Position numbers and translations under genes: made by a program. Of a stretch of DNA of 34,910 bases, positions 14,896 to 34,910 are shown in pieces. The notes beneath the pieces were generated by a model. It ran no database searches. It had not been told where the DNA came from and worked only from the letters and a program-made list of their open reading frames with translations. Each line of letters opens with the position of its first letter. Positions within the stretch are counted from its first letter, which is position 1. The DNA is from Actinomycetes bacterium (GTDB lineage: Bacteria > Actinomycetota > Acidimicrobiia > Acidimicrobiales > UBA8190): the NCBI GenBank assembly GCA_021819525.1, contig JAKAQW010000022.1:1-34910 (forward strand), given 5' to 3'.

Positions 14896-16275
14896 CTACA
14901 GGGCTTTGCCCGGGTTCAAGATGCCGAGGGGGTCGAAGAGGGCCTTGATCTGGCGCTGGATGCCGAGCACGTCCTCGCCGAGCTGGGTCATGAGCCACGG
15001 GCGCTTCAAGGTGCCGACCCCGTGCTCGCCGGTGATGGTGCCGCCGAGCGACTGAGCCAGATCCATGACTGCCCCGAACGCTGATCCGGCCCGCTTCACG
15101 GCGTCGGGGTCGTCGCGGTCGAAGACGACCAGCGGATGGAAGTTGCCGTCGCCGGCGTGGCCGACGGTGGCGATGACGGTCCTGTGCTGTGCCGACAGGG
15201 CGGCGACCCCCTCGACGAGGGCTGCCACCTGGGGGATGGGGACACCGACGTCTTCGATCAGCACGGTGCCGAGGCGCTCCACAGCAGGGATGGCCATACG
15301 CCGTGCCGCCATGAACTGCTCGCCTTCGTCCTCGTCCTCGGTCCAGTACGTCTCGGTGGCGCCTTCGGCCCGGCAGTGTGCCACCATGGCCTCGATCTCC
15401 TCGCTGCCGGCGTCGGAACGTCCGAGGAGCAGCGCTCCGCAGTCGGTGTCGAGGCCCATGTGGATCCGATCTTCTACCGCGCGTACCGACACCTGGTCCA
15501 TCAGCTCGAGCGCAGCGGGCCGGCTGCTCGCAGCGATGGCGGCCACCGCCCGCCCAGCTGCGCCGACATCGGAGAAGCCGGCCACCATGGTGATCGCCGC
15601 CGGTGGCGCCGGGCGCAGCCGCAAGGTGACCTCGGTGACGATCCCGAGGGTGCCTTCGCTACCTACGAACAGGCGCTTCAGGTCGTAGCCGGCCACGTCC
15701 TTCACCGTCCGGCCCCCCAGCTCGAGCAGCCGGCCGTCGGCCAGCACCACCTCGAGGCCGAGGACGTAGTCGGTGGTGACGCCGTACTTGACGCAGCACG
15801 CCCCGCCGGCGTTGGTGGCGACGTTGCCGCCGATGGAGCAGATCTCGAAGCTGGAGGGGTCCGGCGGGTACCACAGCCCTGCCGCGCTCGCAGCGGCTTT
15901 CACCTCGGCGTTCAGCGCGCCGGGCTGGGCCACGGCCACGCCGGCGGCCGGGTCGACGGTGATGGCCCGCATCCGCTCGGTGGACAGCACCACGCAGCCG
16001 TCGCAGGCGAGTGATCCACCGGCCAAGCTCGTCCCCGCGCCTCGGGGCACCACCGGGATCCGGTGGGCCGAAGCCCAGCGCATGGTGGTCACCACGTCGG
16101 CGACGTCGGCGGCTCGGACCACAGCGAGCGGCCATCCTGCGTCTGGGGCGTTGGACCGGTCGAACCGGTACCCGCCCACCACGTCGGGATCGGTCAGGAC
16201 GGTCCCCTCGGGCAAGGCGGCCCGTAGGCCTGTGACGACAGGGGGTGCAAGCGGCGGGTGCACTATCCCCAGCAT
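14896..16275 (-). CDS. FAD-linked 2-hydroxyacid oxidase (GlcD/D-lactate dehydrogenase type)
   Basis: A 459-residue flavoprotein of the vanillyl-alcohol-oxidase family that oxidises a 2-hydroxyacid such as glycolate or D-lactate. The PCMH FAD domain shows PVVPRGAGTSLAGGSLA, CSIGGNVATNAGGACCVKYG, TVKDVAGYDLKRLFVGSEG and TLGIVTEVTLRLRP. The C-terminal domain shows TVIATVGHAGDGNFHPLVVF and GTITGEHGVGTLKRPWL, where His residues line the active site, and it ends LFDPLGILNPGKAL. Length and order match GlcD. No GlcE/GlcF or Fe-S partner gene is adjacent, so the electron acceptor is unknown. It starts at ATG, 50 bases from the membrane-protein operon. Confidence 0.92.
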   Translation of the reverse strand: MLGIVHPPLAPPVVTGLRAALPEGTVLTDPDVVGGYRFDRSNAPDAGWPLAVVRAADVADVVTTMRWASAHRIPVVPRGAGTSLAGGSLACDGCVVLSTERMRAITVDPAAGVAVAQPGALNAEVKAAASAAGLWYPPDPSSFEICSIGGNVATNAGGACCVKYGVTTDYVLGLEVVLADGRLLELGGRTVKDVAGYDLKRLFVGSEGTLGIVTEVTLRLRPAPPAAITMVAGFSDVGAAGRAVAAIAASSRPAALELMDQVSVRAVEDRIHMGLDTDCGALLLGRSDAGSEEIEAMVAHCRAEGATETYWTEDEDEGEQFMAARRMAIPAVERLGTVLIEDVGVPIPQVAALVEGVAALSAQHRTVIATVGHAGDGNFHPLVVFDRDDPDAVKRAGSAFGAVMDLAQSLGGTITGEHGVGTLKRPWLMTQLGEDVLGIQRQIKALFDPLGILNPGKAL

Positions 16276-22333: not shown

Positions 22334-24265
22334 GTGGCCGAGCCGTACACCATCGGGGCTGTGGTGGCGGTGACGGTGGTGACCGCCGTGGTCGGCCTGC
22401 GGGGCATGCGAGTGGCCCGGACACCGGCAGACTTCATGGTGGCAGCCCGCCAGGTCCCACCGCTGCTCAACGCCTCGGCGATCTCCGGGGAGTACCTGTC
22501 GGCCGCCTCGTTCCTCGGGATCGCCGGGTTGGCGCTGCTCGAAGGGCTCGGCGCTCTGTGGTACGCCGTGGGCTACGCGGCCGGGTACCTGGTGCTGCTG
22601 GCCGCGGTGGCCGCCCCGCTGCGACGGTTCGGGGCGTACACCATCCCCGACTTCGCCGAAGGGCGTCTCGGGTCGCCGCGGCTGCGGCGCTGGGCCACGG
22701 TCATGGTGCTGGTCATCTGCGGCTTCTACCTGTTGCCGCAGCTCAACGGCGCCGGGATCACGTTGCAGCTGGCGGTGGGCGGCCCGTACTGGATCGGCGT
22801 GGTCGTGCTCGGCGTGGTGGTCTCCGTCGGGATCGCCAGTGGGGGGATGAAGGGCATCACCGTGGTCCAGGCCTTCTTGTACTGGCTGAAGCTGACGGTC
22901 ATCGCCGTGCCCGCGCTGGTCCTGCTGCTCGTGTTGCGCCACCCGCCGGTAGCTGGCATCGAGGGTCCCGCGCCGCTGCACTTCCTCCGCGCGACGCTGG
23001 TGCGCTTCCCCGACGCCGAGACGATATCGGTGCGCCACGCCGTGACGGTGCTGGCCAGGGGCGTGGTGGGTGGGCTGCGCCGGTCGGGCCCGCTGCTGCT
23101 CCACCCCGGCCGCAGCACGGTGGGCGCGGGCTCGGCGCTGCGGTTCCCGGCCGGATCTGCCGCACCGGCGGTGCAGCCGGGCAGCGTGGTCGGCGACCGC
23201 GCCTGGGCGTCACCGCTCGTGCAGTTCGGCGGCCGGGCGGACCATCCCTTGGCTGCCACCTACGGGGTGCTGGTGGCCACGGTGTTCGGCGCCATGGGCC
23301 TGCCGCACATCCTGGTGCGCTTCTACACCAACAGCGACGGCCGCTCCGCCCGGCGGACGACCGCACTGGTGCTGCTGCTGGTGTCGGTCTTCTACGCCTT
23401 CCCGGCGGTCTATGCGGTTCTCGGACGGATGGAGGCTCCGGGGCTGTACGTCTCGGGGCAAGCGGACTCGGTGGTCCTTGCCCTTCCGAAGATGGTGGCC
23501 GGCGGCCTGGGCGGAGACGTGCTCGGTGCGCTGGTGGCGGCGGGGGCCTTCGCCGCCTTCTTGTCGACGTCCTCGGGGCTGCTCATCGCCATGGCCGGCG
23601 CCCTCTCCCACGACATCTTGGGGCGCGGTGTGCGGGCATTTCGGCTGAGCGCGCTGGGAATCGGGGCGGCGGTGACGGCGGGCGGCTTGGCCGTGGCCGC
23701 CGTGCCGATCAACGTGCTGGTGGGCTGGGCGTTCGCCATCGCCGCCTCGTCGTTCTGCCCGCTGCTGCTGCTGGGGATCTGGTGGCCTCGGCTCACCCGG
23801 GTCGGAGCCAAGTGGGGACTGGCGCTCGGCGGCGGGGCCTCGTCGGCAGCGGTGGTAGCCGATCTGGCCGGGGCCGCACAGCGTGGCTGGCCGGCCCTGC
23901 TGCTCGGCGAGCCGGCCATCTGGACCGTGCCGCTGGCCTTCGGCGCCATGGTGGTCGGGTCGCTGGCCACGCCCCAGGCGGTGCCGGCGAACGTGACTGA
24001 CCTGCTGGTCACCTTGCACCTGCCTGAACGGCTGCAGCTGCGCCACGGCCAGCCGCCGGGCGCGCAGCGGCTCGAGACGCTCAGCGCGCCGCCTGGTCCC
24101 CGAACACCCGCCGGTACACGTCCTCGCCGTACCCGGTCCGCCTGGGAGGCGCTTCGACCAGATGGAACGGGCGGCTCCCCTCGACGCCGCGCTCGGCGCG
24201 CAGGAAGCGCACCGGTGTCGCCGCCTGGCGGGCGAAGCCGTCTGCCAGGTCGAAGAAGTGGGTGA
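22334..24265 (+). CDS. sodium/solute symporter, acetate-permease (ActP/MctP-like) type
   Basis: A 643-residue symporter with about thirteen helices that probably imports acetate or another monocarboxylate with sodium. Family features are ADFMVAARQVPPLLNASAIS, GEYLSAASFLGIAGL, FGAMGLPHILVRFYTNSDGR and FLSTSSGLLIAMAGALSHDI. It starts at a GTG two bases after the DUF485-like gene. The domain ends near PANVTDLLVTLHLPERLQ; beyond that, about 61 residues of Arg/Pro/Gly-rich tail are encoded opposite the 3' end of the convergent MutS-like gene. The middle segment around LLHPGRSTVGAGSALRF is unusually polar for the family. The kinase-regulator pair upstream should control it. Confidence 0.9.
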   Translation: MAEPYTIGAVVAVTVVTAVVGLRGMRVARTPADFMVAARQVPPLLNASAISGEYLSAASFLGIAGLALLEGLGALWYAVGYAAGYLVLLAAVAAPLRRFGAYTIPDFAEGRLGSPRLRRWATVMVLVICGFYLLPQLNGAGITLQLAVGGPYWIGVVVLGVVVSVGIASGGMKGITVVQAFLYWLKLTVIAVPALVLLLVLRHPPVAGIEGPAPLHFLRATLVRFPDAETISVRHAVTVLARGVVGGLRRSGPLLLHPGRSTVGAGSALRFPAGSAAPAVQPGSVVGDRAWASPLVQFGGRADHPLAATYGVLVATVFGAMGLPHILVRFYTNSDGRSARRTTALVLLLVSVFYAFPAVYAVLGRMEAPGLYVSGQADSVVLALPKMVAGGLGGDVLGALVAAGAFAAFLSTSSGLLIAMAGALSHDILGRGVRAFRLSALGIGAAVTAGGLAVAAVPINVLVGWAFAIAASSFCPLLLLGIWWPRLTRVGAKWGLALGGGASSAAVVADLAGAAQRGWPALLLGEPAIWTVPLAFGAMVVGSLATPQAVPANVTDLLVTLHLPERLQLRHGQPPGAQRLETLSAPPGPRTPAGTRPRRTRSAWEALRPDGTGGSPRRRARRAGSAPVSPPGGRSRLPGRRSG

Positions 24266-25652
24266 CGAAGAACACCCGGACGTCACAGTCCACCAGCGCC
24301 TGGACGACCTGGCGCCCGATCTCCGATCCCTCGGACTCGTTCGTGGCGGAGAACGACTCGTTGCACAGCACTACCGAACCCGGTGCCACCTGGTCGACGA
24401 TGGCCCGCATCCGGTACAGCTCCTCGTCGAGCTTGCCGTGGGTCATAGAGGTGTCCTCCTCCCGCTTGAAGTGGGTGAAGCACCCCTCGGCGATACTCAG
24501 ACGCAGCGAGGTGGCCCCGGCGAAGAGGCCGCACTGGGCCATCAGCTGGGCCTGGCCCACGCTGCGCAGGAAGGTGGACTTGCCGCCTTGGTTCGCCCCG
24601 GTGACCATGACCAGCGGCACTGCGTCCGCGTCGACGTCGTTGCCGACGACAGGCTCGGTGGTGGTGAGCGACAGGCAGACGTCCACCAGGCCGCGGGCGG
24701 ACCAGGCCTGTGCTGTCGTCGGAAGGACTTCGGGCACGCAGACCGGCTCGCCCTTGCTGGCCAAGACGCGGTGCAGCTCGGCGGCGCCGAGGTAGAAGCC
24801 GATCTCCATGCGTAGCAGGCGGAAGAAGGCGAGGATGTGGTCGACCGAGCGGGCCAGTGCGTCGGCCACCAGGTTCACGCCCCGGTCGCGCAGCTGCCCG
24901 AGGGTCTGCAGCCCGGCTTCGTCGCGATCGGCGACCACGACCGTGTGGGCATGTCCGGCGCCGAAGAGGTCCCGGAGGTGGCGGCGGCCGGTGGGCTGGT
25001 TGGGGGCACGCAGCACGTAGCTCGCACCGTGCGCGCCGCCGCCCAGCTCGGCGCTGACCAGCACGCCGCCGGAGAACCGGAGGCGCTTCAGGTGAGCGTC
25101 GACCTCGGCGAAGTAGTCGTCGCTGAGCTCCTTGGACAGCATCGAGAACAAGGTGGTGAAGGCCTCTGATTCGAAGCGGTCCGCGTGGTGCTCGGCCAGG
25201 GACCGAAGCTGGCGCAGCACGCCCACGAAGAACGCCATCACCTCCGACGACCGGTGCAAGATGGACTCCGGGGAGCGGGTGAACAGGCCGAAGAAGTTCC
25301 GCCGCTCGCCGTCGATGGCTCCGACGACGAGATCGTAGATGGCCTGCACCGCGTCGCGATGCACCAGGGTGTCGTGCAGGGCGGCCTGGCGGTAGCCGAT
25401 GGTGTCCAAGTCGCCGAGCGGGGCCAGCACGACCTGGCGAGCCACGGCACCGAGGAACGCGTCGCCACCGGCCATGGCCGCGAACAGCTGCTCCAGGCCC
25501 AGATCCGCTACCAGGTCGACCGGTGCATCCAAGCGCGCGGGGCTGTTCGGAGAAGCACCATCGCCGGGGCGAACGCCCGGTCGGGCGCGGCCGTCGACGT
25601 CGGGGTAGACGATCTCCGCGTCGCGGTCACGGAACAGGAGATGGGCTTTCAT
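24081..25652 (-). CDS. MutS-like ATPase, subtype 1 (MutS domain III/V only)
   Basis: A 523-residue protein with the MutS ATPase domain at its C-terminus and a helical core before it. Walker A is VMVTGANQGGKSTFLRSVGQ with Lys358. The strand with the catalytic Glu is VVLCNESFSATNESEGSEIG, with Asn431 where MutS normally has Asp, followed by Glu432. CFTHFKREEDTSMTHGKLDE corresponds to the conserved Q-loop/ABC-type region, and VFFVTHFFDLADGF carries the His switch. No N-terminal mismatch-binding domain is present, so ordinary mismatch repair is unlikely. It lies 13 bases after MutS-like subtype 2 and should share its fluoride riboswitch. Its last 185 bases overlap the symporter tail. Confidence 0.88.
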   Translation of the reverse strand: MKAHLLFRDRDAEIVYPDVDGRARPGVRPGDGASPNSPARLDAPVDLVADLGLEQLFAAMAGGDAFLGAVARQVVLAPLGDLDTIGYRQAALHDTLVHRDAVQAIYDLVVGAIDGERRNFFGLFTRSPESILHRSSEVMAFFVGVLRQLRSLAEHHADRFESEAFTTLFSMLSKELSDDYFAEVDAHLKRLRFSGGVLVSAELGGGAHGASYVLRAPNQPTGRRHLRDLFGAGHAHTVVVADRDEAGLQTLGQLRDRGVNLVADALARSVDHILAFFRLLRMEIGFYLGAAELHRVLASKGEPVCVPEVLPTTAQAWSARGLVDVCLSLTTTEPVVGNDVDADAVPLVMVTGANQGGKSTFLRSVGQAQLMAQCGLFAGATSLRLSIAEGCFTHFKREEDTSMTHGKLDEELYRMRAIVDQVAPGSVVLCNESFSATNESEGSEIGRQVVQALVDCDVRVFFVTHFFDLADGFARQAATPVRFLRAERGVEGSRPFHLVEAPPRRTGYGEDVYRRVFGDQAAR

Positions 25653-25665
25653 CGGAGGTGGGTCC

Positions 25666-27246
25666 TCACGAGGCGAGCCGGGCTTTCATGTGCTCGTAGG
25701 TGAGACCGTAGCGCTCGGCGATGGCCAGCGCATAGGCCCGGCCGTCAGCCGGGCGCCGGAGGATGCGGAACGTGCGCACTGTGGGGTCGTCGGGGACGAC
25801 GCTCGAGACCATGCTCACCGTGGACGGGCGCAGTCGCGAGAGCTCGTCGATGAACGTGACGCACACGCAGAGCATGTCGCGATCGAGGATCTGCTCCAGG
25901 ATGCGCCGGCCGAGCAGGCGGGCGTCGTGGAGGGTGGTCGAGGCGAACAGCTCGTTCATGACGACCAGGCTGCGTTCGGTGGCCACCTCCAGGATCCCAC
26001 GCATGCGCTCCAGGTCGTCCTGGAGCTTGCCGCTGTGGCTGGCCATGTCCTCCTGTCGCTCGAACTGGGTGAAGACACGGTCGCACAGGAACAGCCTCGC
26101 GGACGCGGCGGGAACCGGCACGCCCAGCCCGGCCAGGAAGTGGATCTGGCCCACCGCCCGGGCGAAGGTGGTCTTGCCGCCCTGGTTCGGCCCCGAGATC
26201 ACCAGCGCCCGCTCGGGCCCGTCGAGCTCGTAGTCGTTGGCGACGACAGGCCGGGCGCTGGCCGCCAGCTTGCCCGCGAGCGCCGCGTCGAACATGCCTC
26301 GGACCGACTCCGCCTTCGACGTCACGGAGACCGCCGGGTGGCAGAAGGTCAGCCCGGCGCGCTCCAAGGCGCGTTGCCAGTGCCGAAAGGCCAGGTAGAA
26401 CTGGATCTCCCGGTCGAAGCGGGCGATGGTCGGGTCGAGGAAGTCCTGATGCTCGGCGGGATGGCGCACCAGCAGGGCGAAGGTCTCGGCGTGCAGCTGG
26501 GCCACGTGGTCGAGGATGGCCGCCTCGACGTGGTCGAGGTCGGGGTACGAGCGAAAGCCGACCCGACGGTCGGTCACCTCTCCCTGGGCGAACTTCTCGA
26601 AGGTGGTGGCGACCATCTGGCTGTAGTCGGCCTCACCGTCGTAGAGGCGGACCTCGATGCGAGATCCGTGGATCCTCAGGCAGTACTTCACGGTACCGAG
26701 CGCGGCCCACAGCCGGTCCTGGTGCTCGGCCAGGGTGGAGAACCGAGGGCTCGCTCGGTACCCCTGCACGAAGTGCCGCAGTCCGCAGAGCCCTCGTGAC
26801 GCCAGCTCGACGCCGGCCAGGTCGCCGTCGAGGTGCTCGATGGCTCGACGGTACGTCGTGGTCGCCGCGAGGTACCACCATGCCTGCTGGTAGCCGTTAC
26901 GCAAGGTACGAGCTTGCGCCAGCTGCCGGCGCATCGCACGCATCTGCTCGGCGAAGCGCTGCACGGTCTCGACCAGCTCCGGCTGCTCGAGGTCCTCGAA
27001 CACCTCGTGGCGGTACGCGACGGCGTCTTCGCTCGTGAGCCGGTCCCAGAACAGCGGAGCCAGGTCGTACTCCTCGAAGTCGGCGACGATCGACGCCACG
27101 AGCTGGTCCAGGTTGAGGTCGGTGAAGCAGGCCGGCTGCTCGTGGCCTCGGTCGCCGCCACCCGCGCCGTGGAGCGCCGTGCCGTGCCCGAAGAGGACGC
27201 TCGAAAAGTCGGTGATCACCGCACCGTGCGCCCAAGTCGCCGGCAC
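25666..27246 (-). CDS. MutS-like ATPase, subtype 2
   Basis: A 526-residue protein homologous in plan to the next gene but distinct in sequence. The N-terminal part shows FTDLNLDQLVASIVADFEEY and a long helical core. The ATPase domain has Walker A ALVISGPNQGGKTTFARAVG with Lys358, the Q-loop-like RVFTQFERQEDMASHSGKLQ, and VVMNELFASTTLHDARLLG with Asn431-Glu432 instead of Asp-Glu. Both key residues fall at the same numbers as in subtype 1, so the two probably form a heterodimer. The GTG at 27246 is taken as start; another GTG at 27219 (VITDFSSVLFG) is possible. The riboswitch at 27494-27554 lies upstream on the same strand. Confidence 0.87.
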   Translation of the reverse strand: MPATWAHGAVITDFSSVLFGHGTALHGAGGGDRGHEQPACFTDLNLDQLVASIVADFEEYDLAPLFWDRLTSEDAVAYRHEVFEDLEQPELVETVQRFAEQMRAMRRQLAQARTLRNGYQQAWWYLAATTTYRRAIEHLDGDLAGVELASRGLCGLRHFVQGYRASPRFSTLAEHQDRLWAALGTVKYCLRIHGSRIEVRLYDGEADYSQMVATTFEKFAQGEVTDRRVGFRSYPDLDHVEAAILDHVAQLHAETFALLVRHPAEHQDFLDPTIARFDREIQFYLAFRHWQRALERAGLTFCHPAVSVTSKAESVRGMFDAALAGKLAASARPVVANDYELDGPERALVISGPNQGGKTTFARAVGQIHFLAGLGVPVPAASARLFLCDRVFTQFERQEDMASHSGKLQDDLERMRGILEVATERSLVVMNELFASTTLHDARLLGRRILEQILDRDMLCVCVTFIDELSRLRPSTVSMVSSVVPDDPTVRTFRILRRPADGRAYALAIAERYGLTYEHMKARLAS

Positions 27247-27589: not shown

Positions 27590-27595
27590 TACGCT
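27590..27595 (+). promoter_or_regulatory. -10 box of the PP2C-enolase operon
   Basis: TACGCT lies exactly six bases before the first G of riboswitch B, so transcription should start at or near that G. The promoters of riboswitches A and B are back to back within about 50 bases. Confidence 0.5.
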
Positions 27596-27601
27596 GCGTG
27601 C

Positions 27602-27640
27602 GGCGATGGGGCTCGCCGCGACCGGCCGACGGCTCCTCGA
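27602..27640 (+). ncRNA. fluoride riboswitch B (crcB motif), PP2C-enolase operon; somewhat degenerate
   Basis: GGCG-ATGGGGCT-CGCC forms the first stem-loop, and GGCTCCT is the pseudoknot strand (GGGGC with GCTCC, one G-U pair). The conserved TGATGG before it reads CGACGG, and the middle hairpin is very short, so this copy departs most from the family. TCCTC at 27634-27638, overlapping the pseudoknot strand, can pair with GAGGA at 27653-27657, the ribosome binding site of the leader ORF. Confidence 0.8.
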
Positions 27641-27662
27641 GAGCGCGAACGAGAGGAACGAC

Positions 27663-31341: not shown

Positions 31342-31347
31342 TATGCT
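31342..31347 (+). promoter_or_regulatory. -10 box of the dynamin-like GTPase operon
   Basis: TATGCT lies exactly six bases before the first G of riboswitch D. The promoters of riboswitches C and D are back to back within about 65 bases. No -35 box was recognised. Confidence 0.5.
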
Positions 31348-31353
31348 TGGTTC

Positions 31354-31399
31354 GGCGATGGAGCTCGCCGGTGCTCGCCGACGTGGCTGATGGCTCCTG
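31354..31399 (+). ncRNA. fluoride riboswitch D (crcB motif), dynamin-like GTPase operon
   Basis: GGCG-ATGGAGCT-CGCC opens the aptamer, and GGCTGATGGCTCCTG closes it with GCTCC pairing to the loop GGAGC. A short middle hairpin lies between. Immediately downstream, CCTGT at 31396-31400 pairs with ACAGG at 31404-31408, and CAGGT-gcgag-ACCTG forms another hairpin just before the leader ORF. These are candidate expression-platform elements that would compete with the aptamer. Confidence 0.93.
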
Positions 31400-31439
31400 T
31401 GCGACAGGCTTCCTGCAGGTGCGAGACCTGAGGTGCACG

Positions 31440-31463
31440 ATGAGAGCTGGTGCGAGCAGATGA
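31440..31463 (+). CDS. 7-codon leader ORF overlapping the GTPase start
   Basis: ATG AGA GCT through AGA TGA encodes MRAGASR. It has GAGGTG four bases upstream, and its TGA overlaps the ATG of the GTPase gene (ATGA). This matches the leader ORF in the riboswitch B operon and suggests translation coupling through a short ORF. The peptide is probably without function. Confidence 0.45.
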   Translation: MRAGASR

Positions 31464-33178
31464 GCGACATCGGACGTCTGCAGGTGGCGATCGAGTCGGT
31501 GGCCGATATGGCTTCAGGCCCCCGGCCCGACGTCGCGCGGCGCGCCGAGGCGTTGGCAGAGCGGGTCGGGTCGGGCCGCTTCCACGTGGCGCTAGCCGGG
31601 GATTTCAAGCGGGGCAAGTCGACCGTGCTGAACGCGCTCGTGGGCGAGGACCTGCTTCCGTCGGGTGTGGTGCCGGTGACTGCCATCGGCACCGAAGTGC
31701 GTTTCGGGCGGGGGCCGATCGTCGTCGTCGGGACCGATGGGACCGAGCGTCCGCTCGGGGCTGGCGAGACCCTGGCCGACTACGTGACCGAGGCCGGGAA
31801 CCCCGGGAACATCCGTAACGTGCGGCGGGTGGTGGTGCAGCGACCGGCGCCATTGCTCGCATCGGGCCTGGTGCTGGTGGACACCCCGGGTCTGGGCTCG
31901 GTCCACGGGCACAACGACGACGAGGCACGACGTCAGCTCGACCACGCCGACGGGGCGATCGTGGTGCTGTCGGCCGACTCGCCGCTGTCGGAGCGCGAGC
32001 GCGCGGTGGTGGCTACCGTGGCCGCCCGCCAGGCTCGGCTGTTCATCGTCTTGAACAAGGTCGATCATCTCACCGCCGGCGAGCGTGACGAGGTCATGGG
32101 GTTCGTGCGTCAGGCGTTGGGCCCGGTGATCGGTCGCGAGCCGAAGATATGGTGCGTGTCTGCCCGCGCCGCGCTGTGGGCCAAACGCGACGGGCGCCCG
32201 CCGAGCCCAGAGGCTGGAGACTTCGTCGACCTGGAGGGAGCGCTGGCGCACTTCGTCGACGAGGAGCTGGCCGCCGCCCGGCTACAGTCCGCCCGGGTCG
32301 GGCTGACCGCCCTGCTGGGCCAGCTGGACGACGAGCGCGCGGTGGAAGCGGCTGCGGCGGACCTGGACGACGAGCGGTTGGCCAGCGCAGTGGCTGATCT
32401 GCGTGCGGCAGTTGCCGGCGTGCGCCAGGCGGTCCACGACGATCGGATCCTCTTGCGGCGCGAGGTCGATGAGCTGGCCGAGCAGGTGGCAGCCGACTTC
32501 CAGCGGGCGGCAGTCGAGGTGACGGGGCGCTGGAGCGAGCATGCAGAGCAGGTGGAGCAGGTGGTGGACACCACGGCCCGGCGTCGGGTGATGGCAGCGC
32601 TCGACGCAACTGTCGAGCAGCTGGTGGCGAGTAGCTTCGAACCTGTCCGCCAGAGGGAGCTGGCGCTCGTGGCCGATCGGTGGCAGCAGCTGACGGCCGG
32701 CGCCCGTGCACGGGCCGAGTCCCGGCTCAATGCCCTCCGGGCGACGGCGGCATCACTGTTCGACGTGTCGCTGGCACCCGTCGAGCTGCCTGAATTGGCC
32801 GCCGGCCGCCACGGGTTCTCCTACCAATTCACCTACGTCGAGGGATCGGCGTCGTTCGCGGTCGACATCGCGAGAATGGTGCTGCCGGCTCGGTGGTTGC
32901 GGCGGCGGCTGCTTCGCCGGGCCCGAGCCCGGTTCGCCGACGAGATCGACAAGCACGCCGGCCGGGCGCGCGCGGACCTGGCCGACCGGCTGCAGCAGGC
33001 CCAGGCGCGTTTCGAGTCGAACCTCGCAGAGCATCTCTCGGACGCGATCGATGCGATCGTGGGGGCAGCAGAGCGCGGGGAGACCCTGCGCCGGGAGACG
33101 GCAGCCGACCGCGAGCGCCGGCAGCGAGCCGACGACGAGATCCGCCGGCTGTTGGGCTCGGCGCTCGCGTTCGGGTAG
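31460..33178 (+). CDS. dynamin-like GTPase
   Basis: A 572-residue large GTPase of the bacterial dynamin type, which remodels or seals membranes. The G1 motif is LAGDFKRGKSTVLNALVGED (Lys53), G2 the Thr in VPVTAIGTEVRFG, G3 VDTPGLGS (Asp141), and G4 LNKVDHL (199-202). A long helical stalk of about 300 residues, rich in Glu, Arg and Ala, follows. The segment VDIARMVLPARWLRRRLLRR near residue 475 could bind membrane. The ATG at 31460 is chosen because it overlaps the leader stop; a GTG at 31433 is possible. It is coupled to a DUF190 gene. Behind a fluoride riboswitch this is unexpected; membrane protection under fluoride stress is a guess. Confidence 0.85.
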   Translation: MSDIGRLQVAIESVADMASGPRPDVARRAEALAERVGSGRFHVALAGDFKRGKSTVLNALVGEDLLPSGVVPVTAIGTEVRFGRGPIVVVGTDGTERPLGAGETLADYVTEAGNPGNIRNVRRVVVQRPAPLLASGLVLVDTPGLGSVHGHNDDEARRQLDHADGAIVVLSADSPLSERERAVVATVAARQARLFIVLNKVDHLTAGERDEVMGFVRQALGPVIGREPKIWCVSARAALWAKRDGRPPSPEAGDFVDLEGALAHFVDEELAAARLQSARVGLTALLGQLDDERAVEAAAADLDDERLASAVADLRAAVAGVRQAVHDDRILLRREVDELAEQVAADFQRAAVEVTGRWSEHAEQVEQVVDTTARRRVMAALDATVEQLVASSFEPVRQRELALVADRWQQLTAGARARAESRLNALRATAASLFDVSLAPVELPELAAGRHGFSYQFTYVEGSASFAVDIARMVLPARWLRRRLLRRARARFADEIDKHAGRARADLADRLQQAQARFESNLAEHLSDAIDAIVGAAERGETLRRETAADRERRQRADDEIRRLLGSALAFG

Positions 33179-33183
33179 TAGCC

Positions 33184-33552
33184 ATGGTGCCAGGGGTCCG
33201 GATGACGATCTTTCTGACCGAGGACGACCGGCTCGGTCACCGGGCGCTGTGGTCGGTCGTCTTGGACCGTGCCCGCGAAGAGGCGATGGCTGGTGCCACC
33301 GTCTGGCGGGGGATCGAGGGGTTCGGCTCATCAGGCCTCCTGCGCAGCGGCCGGTTCCCCGACGCGGCGCAGGGGATGCCCGTGGTGGTGGAGATCGTGG
33401 ACAGCGCCGAGCGGATCGATGCCTTCGCGGCGGTGGTGGCTCAGACAGCCCCAGGTGCGCTGGTGGTGCTGGCGGGCGTCGACGTGTCTCGCCGGGGTGC
33501 GGCGCGTGTCTTCCCGCTGGATGACCCAGTCGAGCGAACCGTGCCGTCCTGA
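33184..33552 (+). CDS. DUF190 protein, copy 2, in the GTPase operon
   Basis: A 122-residue DUF190 protein. Family features are RMTIFLTEDDRLGHRALWSV, AMAGATVWRGIEGFGSSGLL and MPVVVEIVDSAERIDAFAAV. It starts at ATG five bases after the GTPase stop. Compared with copy 1 it has a longer C-terminal tail and lacks the His-rich N-terminus. Pairing with a GTPase rather than a channel is unusual, and suggests DUF190 senses something about fluoride or nucleotides rather than acting only at CrcB. Its last 112 bases overlap the convergent SLOG-like gene. Confidence 0.88.
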   Translation: MVPGVRMTIFLTEDDRLGHRALWSVVLDRAREEAMAGATVWRGIEGFGSSGLLRSGRFPDAAQGMPVVVEIVDSAERIDAFAAVVAQTAPGALVVLAGVDVSRRGAARVFPLDDPVERTVPS

Positions 33553-33968
33553 TCGACGATCGTCACGACCTTGTCGGACGTGGCCGCACGGCCTGCAGCC
33601 GCCCACGGTCCTGCAGACGGGCCGGGCTCGTGTCCGTCGAGCACGATGATCAACGCTTCGGTGGCATCCACGATGCTGCAGAGACAGTTCGCATATGTCG
33701 TCACAGGGTAGACGGCGTCCAGCAGCAGTCCGGCTCGCTCCCCGTGGTCCGACGCCGGATGCACGAACCGCCAGAGACCGAGGTAGTCGGCGAGCCGGTG
33801 GACCTGCACATCGGCTCCGGGGGTGTCACCGTGATGGACCTGGGTTGCCGCGTACCCGAGGAGCAGGTCCCGGACTTCGCGGTACTGGGCTGGGCTCATC
33901 GGAGAGCCGGATCCGACGAACCCGACTCTTGGTACCGTCAAGCGGAGCTGCTGCCAGGGCGGGGTCAT
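33441..33968 (-). CDS. SLOG-like (Rossmann-type) nucleotide-binding protein
   Basis: A 175-residue protein. PRVGFVGSGSPMSPAQYREV is a Gly-rich Rossmann start (about residues 13-32). TQVHHGDTPGADVQVHRLAD (43-60) is the HHGDxxGAD signature of SLOG-type proteins, and VDATEALIIVLDGHE (100-114) and SDKVVTIVDQDGTV are the following strands. Such folds bind nucleotides or nucleotide-derived signals in DprA, LOG and several defence or stress systems. The ATG at 33968 overlaps the stop of the small upstream gene (ATGA). The C-terminal 35 residues lie opposite the DUF190 end and are low-complexity. It should be expressed from riboswitch E. Confidence 0.75.
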   Translation of the reverse strand: MTPPWQQLRLTVPRVGFVGSGSPMSPAQYREVRDLLLGYAATQVHHGDTPGADVQVHRLADYLGLWRFVHPASDHGERAGLLLDAVYPVTTYANCLCSIVDATEALIIVLDGHEPGPSAGPWAAAGRAATSDKVVTIVDQDGTVRSTGSSSGKTRAAPRRDTSTPASTTSAPGAV

Positions 33969-34297
33969 CGGTAGCCGAAGTGTGCGACGTCGGGGTCGAG
34001 AAGGTCGAGAAGCCGGCTGCACGGCCACGACGCCCGGCGGCGCTCGGTCGCGTCGAGATCCTCGTCGAAGCTCGACGTCCGGTCGTCAGCCTGCTGCCAC
34101 CGTGGACATCGCCCCGCGAGCGGGCAATCGCTTCGCGCGGAGCGTCCCCGTGGGGCGCAGGCCGGGTTCTTCGGAGAGCGGAAGCGTGACACTGCCCGCC
34201 ACAGGAGCAGCACCTCCTCTGCGCTGACCGGTGCGGTGACTGTCGCACGGCGAGCGAGGTGCCGCGGCGACAAGGCGTCGGTGCGTCTTCGGTCCAC
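33965..34297 (-). CDS. small Cys-containing protein of unknown function, first gene after riboswitch E
   Basis: A 110-residue basic protein not assigned to any family. Its central part has three clustered Cys in PACAPRGRSARSDCPLAGRC, which could bind a metal, followed by an acidic and helical C-terminus (SFDEDLDATERRRASWPCSR). The GTG at 34297 is favoured because AGGAG lies at 34303-34307, five to six bases upstream; a GTG at 34315 is within the aptamer. Its stop overlaps the SLOG start, so the two are coupled. The ribosome binding site is complementary to the pseudoknot strand of riboswitch E, so this gene is the direct target. Confidence 0.6.
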   Translation of the reverse strand: MDRRRTDALSPRHLARRATVTAPVSAEEVLLLWRAVSRFRSPKNPACAPRGRSARSDCPLAGRCPRWQQADDRTSSFDEDLDATERRRASWPCSRLLDLLDPDVAHFGYR

Positions 34298-34314
34298 AGT
34301 CGCTCCTCTCGACA

Positions 34315-34363
34315 CCAGGAGCCATCAGGTCGACTCGGACCACTTCTGGCGAGCCCCATCGCC
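34315..34363 (-). ncRNA. fluoride riboswitch E (crcB motif), SLOG operon
   Basis: On the minus strand GGCG-ATGGGGCT-CGCC opens the aptamer and CCTGATGGCTCCTGG closes it. GGTC-cgagtc-GACC is the middle hairpin. GGGGC pairs with GCTCC through one G-U pair. GCTCCT in the aptamer is complementary to AGGAGC at 34302-34307, the ribosome binding site of the small Cys-containing protein. Confidence 0.92.
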
Positions 34364-34369
34364 AATTCG

Positions 34370-34375
34370 AGTATA
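34370..34375 (-). promoter_or_regulatory. -10 box of the SLOG operon
   Basis: TATACT on the minus strand ends exactly six bases before the first G of the aptamer; it is the best match to the -10 consensus among the five units. Confidence 0.55.
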
Positions 34376-34455: not shown

Positions 34456-34910
34456 TCACGTGGTCGCCGGGTGGCTATGGCTGTCTCGCTCGCCGAGCCA
34501 GCCACCGTGACGAAGGTAGAGGTCTTCGCCGAAACTGGTGGGAAGCGGCTCGGCCGCCGCCAGCTTGAAGCTCCGCTCGCCGTCGAGCTGGCGTTCGGCT
34601 CGGAGGAACAGGGTGGTGTCGGCACGCTCACGGTAGAAGCTGTGGGCGAAGTCGAATTGGTGGGTGACGAAGAAGACCTCGATCTCCGCCTCGAGCAGGG
34701 CACGCACGACCTGGCGCCCGATCTCTGATCCCTCACGTTCGTTCGTTGCGGCAAATGACTCGTTGAAGAGGATGAGGGAGTGCGGGCTGATCTGGTCTGC
34801 AATGGCGCTCATGCGCACGAGCTCCTCGTCGAGGCGTCCACTGGTCATGGTGGCGTCCTCCTCGCGAATGAAGTGCGTGAAGACTCCTTGGCACACCCTC
34901 GCGCGATATG
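34456..34910 (-). CDS. MutS-like ATPase, second copy of subtype 1, C-terminal part only (runs off the window)
   Basis: The last 150 or so residues of a MutS-like ATPase, with the start beyond the right edge. Order and motifs match MutS-like subtype 1: VFTHFIREEDATMTSGRLDE, then LILFNESFAATNEREGSEIG with Asn-Glu in place of Asp-Glu, and EVFFVTHQFDFAHSFYRERA. It is clearly a diverged paralogue of the gene at 24081-25652, not a copy made recently, because many positions differ. It ends in GERDSHSHPATT. The Walker A part and any riboswitch lie outside the window. A partner of subtype 2 is expected beyond the edge. Confidence 0.88.
   Translation of the reverse strand, partial: YRARVCQGVFTHFIREEDATMTSGRLDEELVRMSAIADQISPHSLILFNESFAATNEREGSEIGRQVVRALLEAEIEVFFVTHQFDFAHSFYRERADTTLFLRAERQLDGERSFKLAAAEPLPTSFGEDLYLRHGGWLGERDSHSHPATT

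Follow-up and report, generated by a model that had tools for sequence, protein, structure and literature searches.

A candidate fluoride-responsive operon encoding a small four-cysteine protein and a SLOG-fold protein with an altered pocket

The window analysed here is a stretch of 34,910 nucleotides and makes up contig C336 entirely; the host genome (4.0 Mb in 341 contigs) is 87.6% complete. Close to its end a fluoride riboswitch, designated E, is followed on the minus strand by two open reading frames, P0002 and P0001, which converge on a DUF190 gene. The features are as follows.

34456 to 34908, minus strand: second MutS-like protein of the window, MutS_B type, C-terminal part (Pfam MutS_V, E 4.8e-5, below cut-off)
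34370 to 34375, minus strand: -10 promoter box TATACT, directly 5' of aptamer E, its last three bases inside the aptamer match
34309 to 34372, minus strand: fluoride riboswitch aptamer E (RF01734, 31.6 bits; order-specific model, 43.5 bits, E 4e-10)
34317 to 34322, minus strand: GCUCCU, 3' strand of the aptamer pseudoknot and also anti-RBS (pseudoknot conservation; complementary to AGGAGC)
34302 to 34307, minus strand: AGGAGC, ribosome binding site of P0002 (sequence; 6-bp complement of the pseudoknot strand)
33965 to 34297, minus strand: P0002, four-cysteine protein, 110 aa, GTG start (codon usage; homologue in genome G289, 50% identity)
33441 to 33968, minus strand: P0001, predicted SLOG-fold protein, 175 aa, ATGA overlap with P0002 (AlphaFold2, Foldseek, profile search)
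33202 to 33552, plus strand: DUF190 gene, downstream of the GTPase gene in the convergent operon (Pfam PF02641, E 1.7e-25)
31297-31222 (minus), 34372-34309 (minus), 31345-31406 (plus) and 27562-27489 (minus): RF01734 aptamers of the window (Rfam)

Riboswitch E matched RF01734 over its full length with 31.6 bits (E 1.2e-5, 10.9 kb searched), below the Rfam gathering score of 34 bits, and ranked second among all RF01734 matches in the 4-Mb host genome. A covariance model specific for the order, built from 31 riboswitches in other genomes of the same order, gave 43.5 bits (E 4e-10). Because of this score we classify riboswitch E, by its sequence, as a real member of the fluoride riboswitch class despite its sub-threshold Rfam score. 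The aptamer can form a GGGGCU/GGCUCC pseudoknot between loop and 3' strand, and across the 31 relatives 99.5% of the cells of this helix hold standard pairs, with double changes present. The initial annotation had placed the locus at 33441-34363, which is the right locus but omits 9 bases of aptamer E at the 5' end. A further fluoride riboswitch was seen at 27593-27645 on the plus strand (35.4 bits with the order model, 13.5 bits with Rfam), where it precedes a PP2C-type phosphatase and an enolase.

Riboswitch E starts 83 bases downstream of the MutS-type gene. TANNNT occurred at the place equivalent to the -10 box in 55/68 fluoride riboswitches, compared with 12.4 (maximum 21) in shuffles, and since the boxes are so frequent, E very likely heads its own transcription unit. 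Fluoride riboswitches throughout the order strongly share this arrangement, in which the -10 box is placed for transcription to begin at the aptamer or slightly upstream of it.

The aptamer leads directly into P0002, whose GTG lies at 34297. As the initial annotation had it, the ribosome binding site of this first gene can pair with the aptamer: AGGAGC (34307-34302) and GCUCCU (34322-34317) form a perfect 6-bp helix, computed at -10 kcal/mol as an isolated hairpin. The crcB riboswitch in the same window has an equivalent anti-RBS layout with a longer helix than E. Any ribosome binding site resembles the complement of CUCCU. Across the order, such complementarity was found in 31/68 riboswitches and in 19.3 of the shuffled set. 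This excess is only modest, so competition between strands is a likely, though unproven, mode of translational control for E. For the longer leader, the minimum-energy fold shows other structures in place of the RBS hairpin.

P0002 extends from the GTG at 34297 to a stop at 33965. It had been described as a small protein with a three-Cys cluster; it is indeed small and Cys-containing, but it has four cysteines (C47, C58, C64 and C93), and 4/4 are conserved in its homologue. By codon usage, with 14 genes of the window as reference, P0002 and P0001 were each the best of six frames, although weaker than typical genes. Pfam, NCBIfam, PADLOC and PHROGs yielded no family match to P0002 apart from one NCBIfam match at chance level, and plasmids and viral contigs yielded no convincing match. 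Weak matches, for example L133, L138 and L139, were rejected as low-complexity or chance, and UvrB-like matches (E 0.6-1.5) were also rejected. The structure prediction (pLDDT 46) was too poor for use.

One clear P0002 homologue was found among 397 genomes of the phylum. It belongs to G289, which is from a different class, and matches P0002 with 50% identity (E 6.6e-16); a profile of the two sequences found no further convincing homologue in 395 genomes of P0002's own class. The two proteins share all four cysteines as well as CPL, RCPRWQ, TERRRA and WPC. Weak codon bias and the missing family match could mean that the P0002 reading frame is spurious or a mere leader peptide, yet a half-identical protein in another class, in a similar genomic setting and with the four cysteines kept, makes this scarcely credible. 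A WhiB-like iron-sulphur regulator is suggested by CPLxxxC followed by ERRR, which resembles the WhiB spacing. We regard that assignment as very improbable: there is no C-x2-C and no Pfam or NCBIfam WhiB match, and hhalign against one WhiB-like sequence returned a probability of 3.7%. P0002 would belong to a new family, outside all known ones. Metal binding is plausible from the sequence, and the four-Cys site would most likely hold zinc or an iron-sulphur centre.

In G289 (6.5 Mb) a fluoride riboswitch is followed by one gene and then by the homologue, and a further riboswitch with a MutS_A-MutS_B pair comes directly after it. All fluoride riboswitches of this genome (6/6) fall within 11.2 kb around the homologue. 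With 11 kb making up roughly 0.2% of the genome, chance linkage of the homologue to fluoride is, by our own estimate, unlikely. The two class mates of G289 yielded no fluoride riboswitches, and the island looks horizontally acquired. The homologue is split over two frames, with MANVSDDEVLLLWRALSTFRG in one and the half containing the cysteines in the other. Since a nearby Na+/H+ exchanger is also broken across frames, assembly errors and decay are both possible. The small reading frame is thus conserved outside the window, fluoride-linked and with its four cysteines kept, where a lack of conservation would have spoken against the annotation. Because the homologue sits in the fluoride-resistance island of a distant bacterium, P0002 probably is a true fluoride-response gene, and a new one. 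Another fluoride-linked family in the same island consists of two proteins, 154 and 183 aa long (L141:8912-9376 and 15238-15789; 35% identity, no Pfam match), each with a fluoride riboswitch of its own upstream.

The stop of P0002 and the start of P0001 share the ATGA at 33968-33965, and P0001 carries the motifs VGFVGSG and HHGDTPGAD; both had been read correctly at the outset, and the SLOG-like call was also upheld. AlphaFold2, run with 22 sequences, predicted a confident Rossmann-like core (block means of 94-97 pLDDT for residues 21-70 and 81-110), with residues 151-175 at low confidence and without structure. Foldseek matched the model to the Moco carrier protein 6y01, to LOG (5its and 5zbl) and to DprA, and among viral models to DprA-like, YAcAr and DUF2493 proteins. 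Profile searches added weak DprA and ShosA matches (E 0.006-0.007). On these models P0001 is predicted to have a Rossmann-like SLOG fold. Curated Pfam and NCBIfam SLOG models gave no match at E ≤ 1, and PADLOC and PHROGs gave none; its relatives matched YAcAr and cpYpsA models weakly. A scan of viral contigs for HHGDTPGAD returned two stretches, with weak matches only.

Remote relatives of P0001 occur here and there in phages, in plasmids and in unrelated bacteria. Within this family P0001 stands apart, keeping 22/33 conserved positions compared with 77-100% in its relatives, a count that is biased since the relatives were retrieved by patterns with conserved stretches such as HGDC. The one scan that took in all genomes also used HGDC, which P0001 itself does not fit, and could miss HGDT relatives. 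The HHGD-x2-GAD motif is kept. Three changes, C49T, R95C and T124A, replace residues that are invariant in 21/21 relatives, the near-invariant pocket residues N96 and T121 have become L and P, and the family GTR motif is GSG.

The literature describes SLOG domains as enzymes acting on nucleotides or as sensors of them (PMC9503650). An active LOG-type phosphoribohydrolase, or a DprA-type nucleic-acid binder, that cleans damaged nucleotides under fluoride could explain why AMP-bound LOG (5zbl) and DprA are among the best Foldseek matches and why HHGD-x2-GAD is retained. It is improbable given that the LOG catalytic motif PGGxGTxxE is absent from P0001, that the RN and SGTW-x-T residues of the family are replaced (C95, L96, P121, A124) and that GTR is GSG. 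The changes argue against a LOG-like enzyme and would leave a binder or a drifting passenger. The SLOG gene had been proposed as a new signal or nucleotide-repair branch of the fluoride response; the fold is retained, but with invariant pocket-motif residues replaced this proposal is weakened.

Fluoride riboswitches were found in 44/248 genomes of the order. The 69 riboswitch records, which include a second locus of the window genome, show recurrent cassettes of CrcB/DUF190, dynamin-family GTPase, MutS_A-MutS_B pairs, PP2C, enolase, MFS transporter and Hyf-like membrane protein. Relatives of P0001 or P0002 were not found at these 69 records, and about 940 genome samplings (248+397+296, overlapping) contained no SLOG relative near a fluoride riboswitch. 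Conservation of the set of P0002, P0001 and riboswitch is accordingly not supported by these samplings. Both genes of the annotated fluoride-controlled pair do lie behind riboswitch E, but only P0002 is fluoride-linked elsewhere. The fluoride link of P0001 comes from this single operon, and the protein is so far unique to the host genome.

It is therefore possible, although we lean against it, that P0002 alone responds to fluoride and that the SLOG gene is a phage or plasmid passenger, captured behind the riboswitch and drifting. The scatter of its relatives, the lost conserved positions and the missing fluoride linkage elsewhere all fit such a passenger. So does its tail: the 3' ends of the P0001 and DUF190 genes overlap by 112 bases (33441-33552), which places the last ~36 codons of P0001 (residues after about 139) antisense to the plus-strand gene. 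A passenger is harder to reconcile with a frame open over 175 codons that has the best codon usage of six, with a fold predicted at high confidence and with the exact ATGA overlap, and the count of conserved positions carries the retrieval bias.

Several neighbouring loci were recorded alongside. The window holds two tandem MutS_A-MutS_B copies, at 24081-27246 and 34456-34908 (both minus strand), the latter lying immediately 5' of E and truncated where the contig stops. This fragment is 69% identical to the MutS_B of the G289 island and 58% identical to the window's own MutS_B. Pairs of this kind are found repeatedly downstream of fluoride riboswitches, both in the order and in G289. Behind the riboswitch at 31345-31406 lies a dynamin-family GTPase (31433-33178, plus strand; Pfam PF00350, E 1.7e-24). 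In the order, the first gene matched downstream of 9/69 fluoride riboswitches is of this family, which makes it a recurring fluoride target that the crcB-motif papers examined do not mention. The second fluoride-riboswitch locus of the host genome (G000 contig C34, L130:2925-3994; 23.1 bits) leads into a membrane protein that, judged by eye, resembles formate hydrogenlyase/NuoH subunits.

We favour, with a probability of about one half, a two-gene operon that fluoride switches ON and that forms part of a fluoride-resistance island; on this reading P0002 is a fluoride-response protein and P0001 a SLOG protein with a remodelled pocket. Without fluoride, GCUCCU of the aptamer would pair with AGGAGC and block translation of P0002. 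With fluoride, GCUCCU would be held in the pseudoknot, and P0002 would be translated from the freed AGGAGC. P0002 would act as a small protein of metal-binding type with a predicted zinc or iron-sulphur site, perhaps assisting the MutS-type ATPase pair next to it. P0001 would be made by translational coupling to P0002, and as its pocket appears remodelled, a binder or sensor is more likely than a LOG-type hydrolase. This fluoride-ON reading is weakened by a P0002 homologue in one other genome only, with its frame broken there, by the lack of a fluoride-linked SLOG relative in the genomes sampled, by RBS complementarity only modestly above shuffles and by a longer-leader fold without the hairpin. 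A bolder version, in which the four-Cys metal protein and the redesigned SLOG together sense or repair a fluoride-caused lesion of nucleotides or metal cofactors with the MutS-type pair, is unlikely.

What bacteria express in the presence of fluoride shows which cell components it harms. A Cys protein found in the fluoride islands of two classes, next to MutS-type ATPases in both, may open a way to study fluoride damage that export and enolase inhibition do not cover.

Compared with known systems, P0002 shares with WhiB-like iron-sulphur proteins the C-x5-C spacing and the Arg-rich stretch that follows, but it lacks the C-x2-C of the C-x2-C-x5-C cluster and a significant profile match. P0001 shares the Rossmann-like SLOG fold of the cytokinin-activating LOG phosphoribohydrolases (5its, 5zbl) and differs in lacking the PGGxGTxxE motif. 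With DprA/ShosA and with the phage DprA-like and DUF2493/YAcAr single-domain SLOG proteins it shares fold, size and motif order (HGD..GAD, Y..RN..IV, SGTW), although its RN and SGT residues are replaced (C95, L96, P121); unlike DprA it has no additional domains and sits behind a fluoride riboswitch. Literature joining a fluoride riboswitch with SLOG or mutS was not found by our search. Reported targets of the crcB motif (RF01734) include mutS, K+/Cl- transport and formate hydrogen lyase genes (PMC2864571), enolase and Na+/H+ antiporters (PMC11139923), and crcB itself (PMC2864571, PMC7266159, PMC11139923). Riboswitch E shares with this motif the aptamer, the pseudoknot and the position in the 5' leader. 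It differs in an apparently translational rather than terminator-type platform, and in the two genes that follow it: PMC2864571 and PMC11139923 list neither the small Cys protein nor the SLOG protein among the targets.
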